Shown: piece by piece, positions 11,639-18,643 of the stretch | How positions within the stretch are numbered: the stretch's first letter is position 1 | Layout: every line of letters begins with the position of its first letter | Origin: Rubripirellula sp. | GTDB lineage: Bacteria > Planctomycetota > Planctomycetia > Pirellulales > Pirellulaceae | Length of the DNA: 35,499 nucleotides | Assembly (NCBI GenBank): GCA_012270385.1 | Contig: JAAXIK010000421.1 | Coordinates: 1 to 35,499, forward strand | Direction: 5' to 3' | The notes under the pieces: model-generated | Told to the model about the DNA's origin: nothing | What the model saw: only the letters and a program-made list of their open reading frames with translations | The model's database searches: none | Position numbers and translations under genes: made by a program

Positions 11639-12778
11639 ATGCGCTACATACCATTGTTTGTGCTTCTGCTGAGCATGTTATTTGATCTGCGTCCCAGTAC
11701 TGCCGAGGGACGCGATACAGTCCTACTCTACTTTGGGTCGCCCCACTGTAGCCCGTGTAAACTCATGAAGCCTCGAATTAGAGCTTTGGAACTCGAGGGA
11801 ACCCCGGTTAGACAAATTGATGTTTTGCAAGAACCTTACCTTGCATCACGTTACGGAGTAAGGCAGACACCAACCTTCATTGTCATTTTGGGACAGAAGG
11901 AATTGACACGATTGGTAGGTCCACAGAGTCTTGTTCAATTGAGGCAAGCGATTGCCAATGATTCACCCAATGCAATCGTTCCAACCTGGTCAAAAGCACA
12001 AGAGCGACTGCGTGGAAATCTATCATCACATCGCAAATTTGGGAGTGCGAGCGCAAATGCTCTAAGTTCCAATCACGCCGATCTTTCCCCAATCGGGGGT
12101 CAACAGATTGTCACTGCGAATTCAGTTAGTTCGCTTGGCGAAGCGATGCCAAATCAGCATACGGCAGATTCAATTGAGCGAGCACGGGCAGCCACCGTAC
12201 GTTTACGCGTTCATGACCCTGATGGATATGGTACCGGGACGGGTACGATTATAGACACTCGTGACGGCGAAGCGTTAGTGCTCACATGTGGTCATCTGTT
12301 TCGTGAAACCGGGGTTGATTCAGAGATAGAGGTTGATGTTTTTCGGGGTGGCCAATGTTTCACTTTGCCGGGACGGCTCATCGATTACGATTCGCAAATT
12401 CATGACATTGGTTTGGTTGGAATTCGAACAGAAATCGAATTCCAACCCATTCGGTTGCGTAGCGACAGTCACCACGCTCGGAGCGGTGAAACGGTCTTTA
12501 GTTTTGGCTGTGATCGCGGGAGTTTACCCACACGACGCGATACCCGAATCACTGGAGTGAATAGATACAATCAGCACCTTGGATTAACCAACTATGAAAT
12601 AGAAGGTGCGCCCATTGATGGTCGAAGCGGCGGTGGACTTTTCGATCAACAAGGTTTATTGATCGGCGTCTGCAATGCAGCGGATTACCATGAAAATGTC
12701 GGTATATATGCCGGACTCGGTTCTATCAGGAAGCAGCTAGAACGAATTGGAATGGCTTCTCTAATGTCCCAAGACTGA
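11639..12778 (+). CDS. Exported thioredoxin-fold::trypsin-like protease fusion
   Basis: A signal peptide (about 1-22) is followed by a thioredoxin fold at about 25-108, with the redox motif CSPC (C37, C40) in GSPHCSPCKLM and the cis-proline loop QTPTF (P78). A linker of about 75 residues leads to a trypsin-like domain at about 180-375 with a full triad: H219 in LTCGHLF, D256 in IHDIGL and S330 in DGRSGGG. The protein therefore has both dithiol-redox and protease centres and should act in the periplasm. Function is inferred: redox-controlled proteolysis, or protease delivery to thiol-containing substrates. AAGGA about nine bases before ATG 11639 supports the start. No partner gene is adjacent on the same strand. 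A perfect 13-bp inverted repeat lies inside the gene. Confidence 0.88.
   Translation: MRYIPLFVLLLSMLFDLRPSTAEGRDTVLLYFGSPHCSPCKLMKPRIRALELEGTPVRQIDVLQEPYLASRYGVRQTPTFIVILGQKELTRLVGPQSLVQLRQAIANDSPNAIVPTWSKAQERLRGNLSSHRKFGSASANALSSNHADLSPIGGQQIVTANSVSSLGEAMPNQHTADSIERARAATVRLRVHDPDGYGTGTGTIIDTRDGEALVLTCGHLFRETGVDSEIEVDVFRGGQCFTLPGRLIDYDSQIHDIGLVGIRTEIEFQPIRLRSDSHHARSGETVFSFGCDRGSLPTRRDTRITGVNRYNQHLGLTNYEIEGAPIDGRSGGGLFDQQGLLIGVCNAADYHENVGIYAGLGSIRKQLERIGMASLMSQD
12415..12447. repeat. Perfect 13-bp inverted repeat with 7-bp loop inside the thioredoxin-protease gene
   Basis: GGTTGGAATTCGA at 12415-12427 and TCGAATTCCAACC at 12435-12447 are exact reverse complements around ACAGAAA. The element encodes part of VGIRTEIEFQP, just after the catalytic Asp of the protease domain. 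It can form a strong hairpin in the mRNA. Confidence 0.8.
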
Positions 12779-12834: not shown

Positions 12835-14955
12835 CTACTCAAAATTGAATTCACTAACAATTTCTCCTGTGACTTTGTGGTGTCGCAGTGTTAGTTTAGG
12901 TGCAGAATTGGCAGATTTTGGGTACGAGAGTTCTCCGCTGAGGAAGCCTCCAGCTACACGAAGAAACCGATGAAGAGAGTGGACATCGCCCTCTCTCCAG
13001 CCCAACTGATGCTTCTCACTCCCAGGCCCACATCCAAACTCCCATAGGCCAGTTTCTTCATCTTCCGATGCGTATTGCCAGTGCCTATCGCCACAGAAAA
13101 TAATCGTTCCCGGATAATCTGCTAGCCTTTTTCTAAGTTCGTTACCCTCATGCTTGAACTGTATGTTGGCGTGATTATCACGTTTGTTATTTCGATCGGG
13201 TCCGATGATAGGAGTCGGGCTTATGATTAATTTGAATTTCGCTTCGGATCGATTCAAGGTCTGAAAAAGCCACTTCTTCTGAGTAGAGCCTAAGATGCTC
13301 TTCTCTGGTCCATCGTCAATGTTGTTTGGGCTCCTGAAATCTCTACCTTCCAATAACCAGATTTGCAGATCCTTGCCCCAATTGATGGTTGTGAACCTTT
13401 CTTTGGCGGTTGGAAACTGTTCGTCGTTGAAGAGATCCCTTCCTTGTTCGAACGTAACCGACCCATAAGTCTGACCGGGCCAGCAATCATTCTTAAGAGT
13501 GTCGTGATCGTCCTTGAGGAAGTAAGAAGTATGGTTTGTATAAAATGCTCTATTACTTGGAAGCGAAAAAATTCGACTCCATTTGAATCGCATAAGTTCT
13601 TTGGTTAGCGCCCACGGCAAGGGCTTGTCATAGTATTCGATGTCCCCTGCGTGTATGACGAAGTCTGGATTTTCCTGTTCCATACTGGGGTAGATTTTAT
13701 GTCCCTGAAATGCGTTGTCTCGCCGAAGGAAATCATGACAAGTGGTCAGGCAGAATTTTATAGGCACTTCCTGTTTTGTAGATGGAGCGGTTTGGAAATG
13801 TCCCCGGATCACTGCTGATACCTGCGAGTCACCCACAGGGCGTGCTTCCACGACCACTGCATAACGTAGGCCGGGGGATAGGTTTTCAAGCTTCCATTGA
13901 TGGGTATAGTCAGTTGCCGAATGTGTCTTCACCCAGTCAGTAGTCTTGATGGACTTATTTTGCTTCTCGGGAAAGTAACTCAGCCGAATTTCGGCTTGCG
14001 TACCTGGACAGGAACCTAGCATTTCCGAAAGTTGATGACCGGGGGGTAACTGTGATGTCAGAAAGCTCTCCTCATCACCGGTGTTCTCCAAGGTTTGAAC
14101 CTCGGAGCGACTTAATTCAATGAAATCAGGGCCATCCCTATTCATCTCCGCGATAGCCGTTGTTCGAGTCCAAATCACTGCTGAAGTTTGGTCAATCCAA
14201 CCATTCTTAATCCCATTAGCGAGATAGGGACCTTTTGATCTTTCAGATTCCGTGGTTGGGTGGGTTCGGTTAGTCCATTGGAACTCTTTGAAAGAGATTT
14301 CACCACCATGGTCAGTGAGCATTATTCGTTGGGAATCAGTTGTATCTGCAAAACCTTGGACTCCCCAGAATTTACTTTTCGCTATCACTGCATCCCAAGA
14401 AGTGCCGGATGTTTTTAATTCAGCAATTAATTCACCATTTAGAAAGTGCTGAATGTGGTTTCCAACGGCGATAATCTTCGAGTAGTTCCATTGCCCTGCT
14501 GGTTTTAGCGGCTTGCTTTCCGAGGGAGCGATGAGATCGTAAATCGAACCGGTACTTGATTTGCCCGCGATGGACCGTTTTTCATCGATGATTTGATATT
14601 CAAGGCCAAGCCAACGATTTCCATGCTGATGGACACGGTACTTCAAACCGGAATTAGTATCACTCGCAATTTTCCATTTCCACGCTAGCTCAAAATCTTG
14701 GGGAATCGGAGGACTTAAAAGACTGCCCGAACCTCCACGGGGCTTGGATAGCTTGATTTCTCCGTCAGTGAAATCCCAGTGTCCTGAACTATCTTTTCCA
14801 TCAAGTGTGACCCAAAAATCTCGCTGAATCCATTTTTCGCTCGACAGATTTGGTTTGGAAGGTGTTTGCGCGTTTACTGTACCCAGCGCACTCCAATTCA
14901 ATACCCATACAAAGAAGGGTATCGCCGGCAAAAAGGTTCTTCGAATCGAATACAT
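12835..14955 (-). CDS. Exported DUF1080 (LamG-like)::PhoD-type metallophosphatase fusion
   Basis: I prefer ATG 14955 to the longer frame from 15000. It gives a standard signal peptide (MYSIRRTFLPAIPFFVWVLNWSALGTVNAQ, shown in part: positive start, hydrophobic core, AQ end), with GAAG a few bases upstream. Residues about 40-235 form a DUF1080 domain (now linked to 3-keto-disaccharide hydrolases and sugar binding; SGLKYRVHQHGNRWLGLEYQ region). A PhoD-type N-terminal domain (ANGIKNGWIDQTSAVIWTR) follows, then a metallophosphatase domain with HAGDIEYYD, LKDDHD and CGDRHWQ, which supply the metal ligands. PhoD enzymes release phosphate from phosphodiesters such as teichoic acids. The sugar-type domain hints at a glycosylated or phosphorylated glycan substrate, which is inference. 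It converges on the upstream plus-strand gene. Confidence 0.87.
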   Translation of the reverse strand: MYSIRRTFLPAIPFFVWVLNWSALGTVNAQTPSKPNLSSEKWIQRDFWVTLDGKDSSGHWDFTDGEIKLSKPRGGSGSLLSPPIPQDFELAWKWKIASDTNSGLKYRVHQHGNRWLGLEYQIIDEKRSIAGKSSTGSIYDLIAPSESKPLKPAGQWNYSKIIAVGNHIQHFLNGELIAELKTSGTSWDAVIAKSKFWGVQGFADTTDSQRIMLTDHGGEISFKEFQWTNRTHPTTESERSKGPYLANGIKNGWIDQTSAVIWTRTTAIAEMNRDGPDFIELSRSEVQTLENTGDEESFLTSQLPPGHQLSEMLGSCPGTQAEIRLSYFPEKQNKSIKTTDWVKTHSATDYTHQWKLENLSPGLRYAVVVEARPVGDSQVSAVIRGHFQTAPSTKQEVPIKFCLTTCHDFLRRDNAFQGHKIYPSMEQENPDFVIHAGDIEYYDKPLPWALTKELMRFKWSRIFSLPSNRAFYTNHTSYFLKDDHDTLKNDCWPGQTYGSVTFEQGRDLFNDEQFPTAKERFTTINWGKDLQIWLLEGRDFRSPNNIDDGPEKSILGSTQKKWLFQTLNRSEAKFKLIISPTPIIGPDRNNKRDNHANIQFKHEGNELRKRLADYPGTIIFCGDRHWQYASEDEETGLWEFGCGPGSEKHQLGWREGDVHSLHRFLRVAGGFLSGELSYPKSANSAPKLTLRHHKVTGEIVSEFNFE

Positions 14956-15210
14956 ATTCAGTGCTTCGTTTATGGCTTGGAAGGAAATCTTGCTCAACAT
15001 GCATCAAGGTTTTGTCTCGGCGAGTATTGTTATACGAAAGACTGACAGCAGAAATGGCTAAATGACTCAAAGCAAATAAACGAGATTGAAATTTGGAAAT
15101 TATTTTCAGTTTCTTACCAAGATTGAGTCCAATCCGGCGAATTGAGGCATAGTTAAACCAATAAATCGTGAGGTTTCCAAGGGTTATCACATCTTTGCTG
15201 GAGAAAAAAC

Positions 15211-16023
15211 ATGATCAAAAAAATGCTTATCGCTTCTGGTGCAGTCTTTCTTCTTTCAACTTTTACAGTGGGTCTTCCTCTCTGGAGTTATGCTCGTTGC
15301 GGATTAGATTGGCTGAGTACTTCGGCCAACGAGGTGTTGCCTTTGGAGTGGGAGATTAAAAGAGCTAGGCAAATGATTGCTGATTTGAAACCAGAAATCG
15401 ACCAAAATGCCCGGGAGATTGCTCGTGAAAAAGTGGAAGTCGCCCGCCTTGAAAAACAATTCAAAGACGCGAAAACAGGGCTGGATAAAAGTCGAGATCA
15501 GATTGAACGGCTCACTTTGGATCTGAAGGCGGGAGATACACAATACACTTATGCTGGTATTCACTATACAAGTGCTCAGGTCAAATCTGATCTAGAGGGA
15601 AGGTTCAAGCGACACAAGACCAAGTCAGAAACTGTGAAAAAGCTTTCGCAGATCTTGGATGCGAGGCGGTTGTCGCTTAAGTCGACGCAAAGCCGCATGT
15701 CGTCGATGATGGATGTAAAGCGTCAGCTTGAGGTGGAAGTAGAAAACCTCGAGGCGCGTCTTGGAGCGCTGCGGGTAGCTGAAACAACTACTGGACTTAG
15801 TCTTGATGACAGCCAACTACAGCGTACGAGAGATCTCTTGGATGACATCGCTATTCGCCTTGATGTTCATGAAGAATCAATAACTATTGAAACCGAGTAT
15901 TTTGATCAGATTGATTTGAGTGAAACCGCAGAGCAAGATCTACTGGATGAGGTTGCTGAATATCTGGAACTTTCTTCAGAACAATCTGACGCGGAATCTT
16001 TGGTCGCGATTCAGCTGGATTGA
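15211..16023 (+). CDS. Membrane-anchored coiled-coil protein of unknown function
   Basis: This 270-residue protein has one N-terminal transmembrane segment (about 5-27) followed by a long charged helical region rich in Glu, Lys, Arg and Leu with heptad character (about 45-110 and 130-185). An acidic tail ends it. GGAG seven bases before ATG 15211 supports the start. The helical part recalls PspA/IM30-like coiled coils superficially, but I see no diagnostic motif. From memory, proteins beginning with a similar membrane anchor and coiled coil recur in Planctomycetota beside signalling genes. The next gene, 146 bases downstream on the same strand, is a membrane Ser/Thr kinase, so a structural or sensing role alongside it is possible. 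No function should be assigned. Confidence 0.8.
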   Translation: MIKKMLIASGAVFLLSTFTVGLPLWSYARCGLDWLSTSANEVLPLEWEIKRARQMIADLKPEIDQNAREIAREKVEVARLEKQFKDAKTGLDKSRDQIERLTLDLKAGDTQYTYAGIHYTSAQVKSDLEGRFKRHKTKSETVKKLSQILDARRLSLKSTQSRMSSMMDVKRQLEVEVENLEARLGALRVAETTTGLSLDDSQLQRTRDLLDDIAIRLDVHEESITIETEYFDQIDLSETAEQDLLDEVAEYLELSSEQSDAESLVAIQLD

Positions 16024-16108
16024 GTCAGATACTTATTCAATAATGCACTGGCGCCCTTTCAGAGGCGTCATGGCAATAGACCCTCGTCGGGTGACTTTCC
16101 TTGTGACA

Positions 16109-16125
16109 TTGAAACTGAGTTTCAA
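16109..16125. promoter_or_regulatory. Perfect 17-bp palindrome upstream of the kinase gene
   Basis: TTGAAACT and AGTTTCAA flank one G, 44 bases before the kinase ATG and 85 bases after the coiled-coil gene stop. This is the form of a dimeric regulator operator. Arms of eight are expected occasionally by chance in a window this size. Confidence 0.3.
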
Positions 16126-16169
16126 ACTTAGGATCGACCAACCAACTACTGAGTGCTTCGAGCCAGAAC

Positions 16170-18056
16170 ATGACTTTTACTCACAAGCCAGGTTCAAAAC
16201 CACTTCCGCGATACGAGATCCAAAGCGGAATCGGACGCGGTGGATTTGGGGAAGTCTATTTTGCTGTAAGCGATGCGGGTAAAGAAGTTGCTTTAAAGTC
16301 AGTGCAACGAAATTTGGACATCGAGCTGCGCGGAGTTACCAACTGCCTGAATCTAAAACATCCAAACCTAGTCGCACTACACGATATATGTGAAGATGAA
16401 AGCCAGCAGCCATGGGTCATCATGGAGTACGTGCGCGGTCCCAATTTACGACAGGTCATTGAGCAATCACCTGGTGGTCTTCCTATACACAAAGTTCAGT
16501 ATTGGATAACTGGTGCGATATCTGGAGTCAAACATCTCCATCAGGCCGGCGTTGTTCATAGAGATTTAAAACCAGAGAATATTTTTGACGATAAGGGAAT
16601 CGTCAAAGTTGGAGATTATGGACTCAGCACGGTGATTCAGCCTGCGCAAGAGAAGGGGACGGAGGGAGTTGGAACAGTCCACTATATGGCACCCGAGGTG
16701 GGTCGCGGTGAATATGGCCCTCCGGTCGATATTTATGCCTTCGGGGTGATTCTGCACGAACTCGTAACAGGTGCAGTGCCTTTTGATGGCGAGACGAAAA
16801 ACGAGGTGATTATTAAACACTTAACTGCAACTCCGTGTCTTGACGATGTTCCCTATGCACTTCGATCGATCATCGAGACCTGTTTGCAGAAAGATCCGTC
16901 GCAGCGTTTTGATAATCTCGATTCACTATCCGAACATTTAGAAGCTGCATTCAGATCTACCGTTCAGTCTGAAATACCCATTGCGGATGTAGTTGACGTT
17001 CGGCAGGGGACTGAGGGGGACATGATCTTGGATGCGGAGCCATATATTTCTGGTAATGTACATCCAAAGGAGAGTGCGGCAATTTATCAGCGGTCTGCTG
17101 AATTTGACTTTCAGCAGCATCGAGATTCATTTCAGGTTTTTAGATATATCGTGGCAGCAATTTTGGTCGTGGGGGTCATCTCAAATCCTTGGGTTTTCGT
17201 CCCGATCATTGTTCTCGGACTAATTATTTACCTCCCAATCTTCGCTCTTCTGAGGATTTTCCGAGCTTATAGCAAGGACTCATCTGATCTGATTGACGAT
17301 GAATCCCAGCAACAAATGGATACCCGTTCAGTTTCTTACCCTGTGGGTTCGAAAAAGTGGCGTTTGGTAATAAGGGAGCGATTAGCTTGCGAAAGTTTCT
17401 CGTACAAAAGTGTGACATGGCTTTTGTCGTCTGCATTGGTTCCCCCACTCTCCTTGCTCTTGAGTCTTATCTTCGTCTCGCTGATTTATCCTGAGAGTAA
17501 GTTGATTTATGCCTCATTTGCTCCTTTTATTTGGAGTGCTTCACTTGCAAGTGTTGCCGCGGTGGGGTTGTTGGCTCTGTCTCAGGTCTGGCAGGTTGAA
17601 GAAGACCATGACATTTCGCAACGGATAACCCTGGCAGCTTTGGGTAGTGTGGTAGGTATGTCGGCCTATCTACTGCATCAGTACCTGATGCTCGATACTC
17701 AGTTTGAATTAATTCGAGATGTGGAGGCAACACAGTTACCCGAATGGATCCTATTTGAGAATTCACCCACCATCTTGGCGTTTGTATCGCATTTTTCTGT
17801 GTTGTTTTTCTTTGTTAATTGGTATCGCTTAACGGACCCACTCAGAAAGAAACGATTTCAGATATGGGGCATTTTGGTGGTAGTGATTTGCGAATGGTGT
17901 GTACAGCAAATTCTCCCACTTTCGCAGCCTGCAACCATGCTTTTCGCCGCACAACTCGGTGTTGTGCTGCAGACTTCATCGGTCTGGCTTTCGAAAACGC
18001 ATCAACTTTCAAATAGGAGTAAAGGAGTAGATCTCATTACAGGACGCTTCACATGA
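16170..18056 (+). CDS. Hanks-type Ser/Thr protein kinase with polytopic membrane C-terminus
   Basis: Residues about 15-262 form a complete kinase domain: glycine loop GIGRGGFGEV, ATP Lys K43 in VALKSV, HRDLKPEN with D132, metal-binding DYG (149-151) in place of the usual DFG, and the APE motif in HYMAPE. Residues about 320-610 contain roughly eight hydrophobic segments (near 324-340, 342-363, 416-440, 447-473, 485-507, 533-551, 564-582 and 588-607). The kinase is therefore fixed at the cytoplasmic face by a large membrane module with no visible extracellular sensor domain. The family phosphorylates Ser/Thr of partner proteins; targets are unknown. The stop overlaps the start of the next gene (ATGA), so their products probably work together. 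Confidence 0.93.
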   Translation: MTFTHKPGSKPLPRYEIQSGIGRGGFGEVYFAVSDAGKEVALKSVQRNLDIELRGVTNCLNLKHPNLVALHDICEDESQQPWVIMEYVRGPNLRQVIEQSPGGLPIHKVQYWITGAISGVKHLHQAGVVHRDLKPENIFDDKGIVKVGDYGLSTVIQPAQEKGTEGVGTVHYMAPEVGRGEYGPPVDIYAFGVILHELVTGAVPFDGETKNEVIIKHLTATPCLDDVPYALRSIIETCLQKDPSQRFDNLDSLSEHLEAAFRSTVQSEIPIADVVDVRQGTEGDMILDAEPYISGNVHPKESAAIYQRSAEFDFQQHRDSFQVFRYIVAAILVVGVISNPWVFVPIIVLGLIIYLPIFALLRIFRAYSKDSSDLIDDESQQQMDTRSVSYPVGSKKWRLVIRERLACESFSYKSVTWLLSSALVPPLSLLLSLIFVSLIYPESKLIYASFAPFIWSASLASVAAVGLLALSQVWQVEEDHDISQRITLAALGSVVGMSAYLLHQYLMLDTQFELIRDVEATQLPEWILFENSPTILAFVSHFSVLFFFVNWYRLTDPLRKKRFQIWGILVVVICEWCVQQILPLSQPATMLFAAQLGVVLQTSSVWLSKTHQLSNRSKGVDLITGRFT

Positions 18057-18643
18057 GGAATTTACAGTTGGTAGGGCAAGTTTTGATCCAGTGGGTAATT
18101 TGTTTCTCAACGATGGGAGTTGGAATCTCTCAGGATTCGAATGCGGTTGAAAAAGAACTTTCAGTGCCTCCTATGGACTTCCATGAATATCCTCGAGGAA
18201 GACCAAATTGGATAAACGCTAATGACTTAGAGAGAAAAGAAATTGCAGTGACATCTGCTCGCGAAACAGAAGAGGATGCAACAAGAGAAATTATCGACTT
18301 GAAAAGGCAGAGCGCCCTTCACTTACTGCAAAAGGCCTTCTTGGATGAAGCCGATCGAGAATTGATCGCCGGTCTTTTTAGTGATGCCGAAATTGAGAAA
18401 TTGTTTGTAACGAAGAATTACTCTGGAAAGGTCAAAGTTGGGGGCAACACACGTTATGAATGTGCTGCGGAATTGATGATGTCTGAGGAGGCCGAAGTTT
18501 TTTTCAAATTGAATTTGTTGAATCAGCAGATTCGACGGCGAATAAAAACCATTTCAATTTCGATGTTGATTTTATCATGCAGTTTCTTTGTCATCGGTTG
18601 GCTGGTCAAAATCAAGTTAGTCGAAAGGGCTTCACAAGGGTAA
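18053..18643 (+). CDS. Small protein with hydrophobic segments at both ends, coupled to the kinase gene; unknown function
   Basis: This 196-residue protein has an N-terminal signal-like hydrophobic segment (about 5-26) and a C-terminal transmembrane segment (about 166-188) ending in KIKLVERASQG. The intervening 140 residues are charged and mostly helical, with no domain I recognise, and are probably exported and tethered by the C-terminal anchor. The start lies within the last codons of the kinase gene (4-bp overlap), implying translational coupling and roughly matched synthesis. The context suggests a periplasmic or membrane partner of the kinase, such as a sensor or stabiliser, but this is inference from position only. 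Confidence 0.75.
   Translation: MRNLQLVGQVLIQWVICFSTMGVGISQDSNAVEKELSVPPMDFHEYPRGRPNWINANDLERKEIAVTSARETEEDATREIIDLKRQSALHLLQKAFLDEADRELIAGLFSDAEIEKLFVTKNYSGKVKVGGNTRYECAAELMMSEEAEVFFKLNLLNQQIRRRIKTISISMLILSCSFFVIGWLVKIKLVERASQG

Follow-up and report, generated by a model that had tools for sequence, protein, structure and literature searches.

A kinase gene trio of Rubripirellula sp. as the reduced remnant of an ancient gene cluster of planctomycetes

The three genes and their products

The window, a stretch of 35,499 nucleotides from Rubripirellula sp., carries three consecutive genes on the plus strand that encode a coiled-coil protein (CC), a polytopic Ser/Thr kinase and a protein referred to here as the third protein (Table 1). 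An earlier note, made from the letters of this stretch alone, had described this arrangement, and the open reading frames were found as it had claimed, together with the overlap of the kinase stop codon and the start of the third gene in the sequence ATGA. All three frames are open in relatives and their order is kept, which argues against a chance arrangement. Comparisons with relatives drew on 60 genomes, the window's own among them, from the genus, family and order to which the window belongs; a match to Bythopirellula indicates that this order is Pirellulales-like.

Table 1. Features of the locus with their positions in the window
Feature	Coordinates	Strand	Description and evidence
Bipartite ECF-type promoter-like element	15117-15142	+	CCAAGAT-N14-CGAAT; exact match, 94 bases 5' of the CC start codon
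CC gene	15211-16023	+	ORF, 270 aa; N-terminal membrane anchor and coiled-coil region of ~230 aa
Intergenic stretch, site of the FHA gene in relatives	16024-16169	+	FHA gene absent; none found in the rest of the genome
Polytopic Ser/Thr kinase gene	16170-18056	+	ORF, 628 aa; PF00069 E=2e-50; alignment A3 (26); model
Kinase domain, residues 15-248	16212-16913	+	Catalytic motifs intact, invariant columns of A3; VIA-align
Kinase membrane region, residues ~320-607	17127-17990	+	5-8 hydrophobic segments, helices in the model, no family
Third gene	18053-18643	+	ORF, 196 aa; N-terminal signal or anchor, predicted Lpp20-like domain, C-terminal membrane helix
Predicted Lpp20/FlgT-like domain of the third protein, residues ~49-158	18197-18526	+	VIA-align to 5ok8_B

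The kinase is of the Hanks type (Pkinase, PF00069) by its catalytic motifs as well as by its fold. It matched PF00069 with 172 bits at a cut-off of 31.7, and the motifs K43, HRD (130-132), N137, DYG (149-151) and APE (174-176) were invariant in 26 relatives (alignment A3). Superposition of its kinase domain on PknA and PknB of M. tuberculosis with VIA-align gave a Z of ~30 and an rmsd of 1.7-2.6 Å. At a strict hydropathy threshold of 1.6, hydrophobic segments were located at residues 320, 342, 421, 453 and 565, while a threshold of 1.2 added those at 486, 534 and 589. As this makes eight and a relative (L080) had eight even at the strict threshold, the earlier count of about eight membrane segments was fair. 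Conserved residues of the membrane region are R485, G492, G496, W551, R559 and Q601 (A3). The best NCBIfam relative, the Stk1/PknB PASTA family NF033483, was matched with 199.9 bits at a cut-off of 450 and only over residues 14-341. The fold of the kinase domain is common to the window kinase and the PASTA kinases PknA, PknB and Stk1; however, the window kinase has several membrane segments instead of one, and a Pfam scan found no PASTA domain in it. Judging from these family matches, it is not a PASTA kinase.

Neither CC nor the third protein reached the curated cut-off of any Pfam or NCBIfam family. The claim that two of the three genes have no recognisable family was thus right with regard to Pfam, but not beyond it, as CC constitutes a phylum-wide family and the third protein was modelled with an Lpp20-like domain. 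CC was detected in 57 of the 60 genomes and in 57 of 244 genomes of the phylum. Its single hydrophobic segment begins at residue 6 and is preceded by MIKK; the long remainder is charged and helical/coiled-coil, in agreement with the single-pass protein described before. By its charge bias, the coiled coil probably lies outside the cytoplasmic membrane, in the periplasm, and would then not be a cytoplasmic anchor.

The third protein was found with profile A2 in 54 of the 60 genomes. No clear gene was present in G014, G023 and G026, of which the latter two keep the rest of the system. Hydrophobic segments at residues 7 and 167 account for the hydrophobic ends that had been noticed. In the model (pLDDT 87), a helix at the N-terminus precedes an alpha/beta domain, and the C-terminus forms a long helix. 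Its best structural neighbour in VIA-align was Lpp20 from H. pylori (5ok8_B) with a Z of 7.4, which is below 8, and an rmsd of 3.6 Å over 97 residues; Tip-alpha, HP1454 and FlgT were among the rows that followed. Since Foldseek yielded no match at E <= 0.001 (E values 0.48-0.7), the similarity to Lpp20 is modest and the Lpp20/FlgT-like fold predicted for the soluble domain no more than suggestive. Sequence similarity to the Lpp20, Tip-alpha and FlgT-like proteins with which it would share this fold was not detectable, and the third protein differs from Lpp20-type proteins in being anchored at both ends. The sole sequence match among solved structures, Rrp9 with an E value of 0.006, was unconvincing and was discarded.

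The gene cluster in relatives and its reduction

In relatives, the trio belongs to a cluster with the order CC, FHA, polytopic kinase, third, ECF sigma factor and a zf-HC2-like protein (ZF). It is near-universal and essentially single-copy in the relatives of the order. CC and kinase genes adjoin each other on the same strand in 54 of the 57 genomes with CC according to best-match coordinates, the remaining three being split between contigs, and the FHA gene adjoins the kinase gene in all 52 genomes with an FHA match. The ECF gene has moved in three genera, namely the window's genus and two close ones; among the 33 genomes outside these, 27 have the kinase and ECF genes as neighbours. All six genes lie in a row in the cultured Bythopirellula polymerisocia Pla144 (L135), and five of the six in a class-level relative (L216) and a deeper member of the phylum (L222). 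The conservation of the trio, which had been named as the first thing to check, was therefore confirmed by order-wide synteny, and the outcome that the earlier note had named as refuting, freely varying neighbours, does not occur.

The gene between CC and kinase in most relatives encodes a product with an FHA domain (PF00498), sometimes with a longer N-terminal region. In members of the order, the domain was matched above the cut-off and carries the phosphothreonine-pocket motif SRRHA; distant members also surpassed the Pfam cut-off. The ECF sigma factor downstream of the third gene was recognised by PF04542/PF07638 matches, and its sigma regions could be identified. Its region 2.2 typically reads [A/T/S]-S-E-D, with S in 17 of 24 sequences, E or D at the third position in 24/24 and D at the fourth in 24/24. 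The linker between sigma2 and sigma4 contains the motif R-x-A-S-S-I-x-R-S-x-E, the Ser residues of which were conserved in 23/24 and 24/24 sequences. ZF, with 136 aa, is encoded downstream of the ECF gene, which it adjoins in many genomes, and has an invariant set of C65, H90, C96 and C99. The zf-HC2 match is weak: several members score close to the Pfam cut-off or under it, and the match covers the N-terminal part instead of the Cys/His cluster.

The components are also lost together. CC, FHA, third, ECF (E<1e-25) and ZF were all absent from three genomes that are 96-99% complete and represent three families (G036, G038 and G043), where only generic kinase matches (~1e-28) were left; two of these families hold other members with the system. 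Further absences include those of ZF in G009 (66% complete) and of ECF in G002 (86%) and G007 (77%). Across the 244 phylum genomes, CC and ZF were both found in 44, CC only in 13 and ZF only in 10 (Fisher p 3.7e-27, a value that ignores phylogeny), and the unpaired cases were weak matches. All 17 phylum genomes with the third gene fall within both the CC set and the ZF set, and CC and ZF are direct neighbours in distant lineages (e.g. G092, G104, G111 and G263). These data support the three genes as a conserved functional unit and not a chance neighbourhood.

The window's own lineage has retained a part of this cluster. ECF and ZF are unlinked from the trio in the genus and two close genera and are located on contigs C225 and C205, respectively, in the window's own genome; ECF is nevertheless kept in nearly every genome of the genus. 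The SRRHA motif of FHA has been replaced by PRKAG-like sequences in the genus, whose FHA proteins gave no PF00498 match by Pfam. A search for FHA in the 60 genomes was positive in 52 and found none in the window's genome (G000), G006, G009 and G015. In these four, the gap between CC and kinase measures 150-221 bases compared to ~0.8-2 kb in the others. An FHA gene hidden in the window was dismissed, with 146 bases between CC and kinase and a genome devoid of an FHA match. The window's genome is ~90% complete, but a missing contig is an unlikely cause of the absence because four genomes agree and the gap is closed. The trio is thus a derived, reduced form of the larger planctomycete cluster. 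The earlier reader saw only three genes because ECF and ZF lie elsewhere, the FHA motif is degenerate in the genus and the FHA gene is gone in the sub-clade. The series from intact cluster via relocated ECF and decaying FHA to lost FHA shows which parts are dispensable.

A promoter-like element upstream of CC

An alignment of the regions upstream of CC in the genus first revealed two boxes, CCAAGAT and GCGAAT, separated by an unconserved spacer. Of 60 loci, 45 had the pattern CAA[GT]A-N15-CGAA upstream of CC, the window and all 24 loci of the genus clade being among them; discovery and count share the genus data, while the loci of order and class played no part in the discovery. Other spacings gave 0-1 matches and mononucleotide shuffles a mean of 0.09 with a maximum of 2. 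Over 518 kb of loci, the 15-base spacing yielded 40 matches compared to 5-23 for other spacings.

The element was found upstream of none of 38 ECF genes and in one case upstream of ZF. The canonical ECF promoter AAC-N15-18-CGT was not enriched over shuffles upstream of CC, ECF or ZF, and no sigma-70-type site was found on the plus strand in the region of the window element. Genomes of the genus mostly contain 1-3 matches to the strict pattern, usually including the one of CC. The window's genome has one match besides that of CC, and hence no sizeable regulon was identified. We infer that the element is an ECF-type promoter that gives autoregulation and that the ECF of the cluster may be the factor recognising it.

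A proposed route from envelope to transcription

Control of ECF sigma factors by Ser/Thr kinases (STKs) is established for EcfP-PknT from Vibrio parahaemolyticus and EcfK-PknS from Xanthomonas citri, both of group ECF43 (PMC8999054, PMC8103513, PMC13147305). The kinase phosphorylates its ECF in sigma2 in both cases, and PknS modifies EcfK in the sigma2-sigma4 linker as well (PMC8999054, PMC13147305). The kinase gene lies beside the ECF gene in these systems as it does in most of the window's relatives outside the three genera named above, but not in the window itself. In EcfP, which is intrinsically inactive, the DAED of region 2.2 is replaced by the uncharged STTA, whereas the cluster ECF keeps two acidic residues. 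As the loss of acidic residues in this region defines the group, the cluster ECF, judged by this motif, is not of the ECF43 type. The multi-helix membrane half of the kinase and the dedicated CC, FHA, third and ZF genes set the cluster further apart from both systems. Planctomycete STK-associated groups, Rhodopirellula members included (ECF59, ECF61, ECF62 and ECF217), are also listed, for which control by a nearby kinase was predicted from synteny; the passages on these groups do not mention CC, FHA and third components (PMC8999054).

The trio is explained most economically by a role in sensing the envelope. The suggestion of an envelope-sensing system in the earlier note was sound in recognising a conserved unit round a polytopic kinase, but took the trio for the whole, while FHA, ECF and ZF belong to it in relatives. 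We consider it fairly probable that the trio represents the membrane-borne half of a pathway leading from the kinase to the ECF sigma factor. CC, periplasmic by its charge bias, and the Lpp20-like third protein, anchored alongside the multi-helix C-terminal half of the kinase and possibly in a physical complex with it, would sense or transmit the state of the envelope. The envelope state would alter how active the Hanks-type kinase domain in the cytoplasm is, and in most relatives the FHA protein would read the phosphorylated kinase or a client. The output would be ECF, probably phosphorylated on conserved Ser of the linker motif and/or of the xSED in region 2.2, and ZF would keep it in check. 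As region 2.2 retains ED, a phospho-switch of the EcfP type is not required. Active ECF would transcribe the operon from CAA[GT]A-N15-CGAA in positive autoregulation, and perhaps a small number of further genes. Given that ECF and ZF have moved away in the window's genus and FHA first decayed and was then lost, the kinase there presumably reaches the sigma factor in trans and with no adaptor. Since the unlinked ECF of the genus also lacks the promoter-like element in its upstream region, the coupling of kinase and ECF proposed there is based on orthology and co-loss.

The position of ZF beside ECF also fits classical anti-sigma control. A reading centred on ZF and ECF would draw on their adjacency, the invariant Cys/His set with its weak zf-HC2 matches, the acidic residues retained in region 2.2 and the joint occurrence of CC and ZF in the phylum, where they can be neighbours. 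It appears rather unlikely to us, as the zf-HC2 match is borderline in several members and off the Cys/His cluster, the conserved Ser-rich sigma linker is left unexplained, and CC and ZF lie apart both in the window's genus and among the Planctomycetaceae-like members of the class.

In the window's clade, the relocation of ECF and ZF together with the degenerate and finally lost FHA could alternatively mean that the trio has been cut off from the sigma factor and serves as a phosphorylation-regulated scaffold of the envelope or cell division with no transcriptional output. One would expect a system cut off in this way to lose ECF, the promoter-like element and the kinase motifs; yet, ECF is kept in nearly every genome of the genus, the element in all loci of the genus clade, and the motifs are intact, which makes this improbable.

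That the trio is just a housekeeping neighbourhood, in which one of the numerous membrane kinases happens to sit next to conserved but unrelated genes, would be in line with the many membrane STKs of planctomycetes (PMC11032199) and at least 21 kinase matches in the window's own genome, but is hardly credible for orthologues that occur as a rule once per genome, are arranged alike within the order and in deeper lineages and share a promoter-like element, and a generic kinase neighbourhood was ruled out by this synteny and the co-loss in three families.

The kinase-to-ECF pathway can be extended, more tentatively, to an ancient system at the level of the phylum. It is conceivable, if somewhat doubtful, that a dedicated coiled-coil protein of the periplasm, together with an Lpp20-like protein anchored at both ends, governs a polytopic kinase, and that this kinase drives an ECF sigma factor of its own from a self-specific promoter, the FHA adaptor being dispensable. 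If true, this would be a route from the envelope to transcription by protein phosphorylation, in the place that two-component or regulated-proteolysis (RseA-type) logic has elsewhere.

The envelope of planctomycetes is unusual, their kinases and ECF sigma factors are very numerous, and to our knowledge almost no planctomycete kinase has been wired to an output. The cluster offers a complete hypothetical pathway with envelope partners, kinase, sigma factor and promoter, which is present in nearly all genomes of the order and recognisable in deeper lineages, with cultured species among them.

Upstream genes and the promoter-like pattern

Two multidomain genes of the window and a further match to the promoter-like pattern CAA[GT]A-N15-CGAA are listed in the table. 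The 379-aa protein carries a hydrophobic segment at its N-terminus. The match was the only strict one in the window's genome (G000) besides that of the coiled-coil protein gene (CC) itself.

Features and their coordinates
Feature	Position	Strand	Source
Thioredoxin-like and trypsin-like serine protease domain fusion, 379 aa	window 11639-12778		
3-keto-disaccharide hydrolase domain (PF06439) and PhoD-like phosphatase domain in one 721-aa protein	window 12835-15000	-	
Strict promoter-like pattern match, CCAATATCATTGTTCAGCCAGCGAAT	G000:C149:14265-14290	-	pattern search of window's genome

Neighbourhood of the relocated zf-HC2-like gene

In the window's genome, the relocated gene of the zf-HC2-like protein (ZF; G000:C205, L263:1842-2261) lies directly 3' of a ketoacyl-synthase-like gene, assigned as FabF-like by eye. 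Ketoacyl-synthase-like genes are likewise found close to the ZF position in the genus members G003 and G018.

Second copies of CC

Divergent second CC copies were observed in the genomes G052 (L230, G052:C1 around 1789000) and G292 (G292:C1:1735305, 1728569). As FHA-like and ECF-like genes lie downstream of the G052 copy and the G292 copy is close to a second ZF, the system is suggested to be present as paralogous copies in these genomes.
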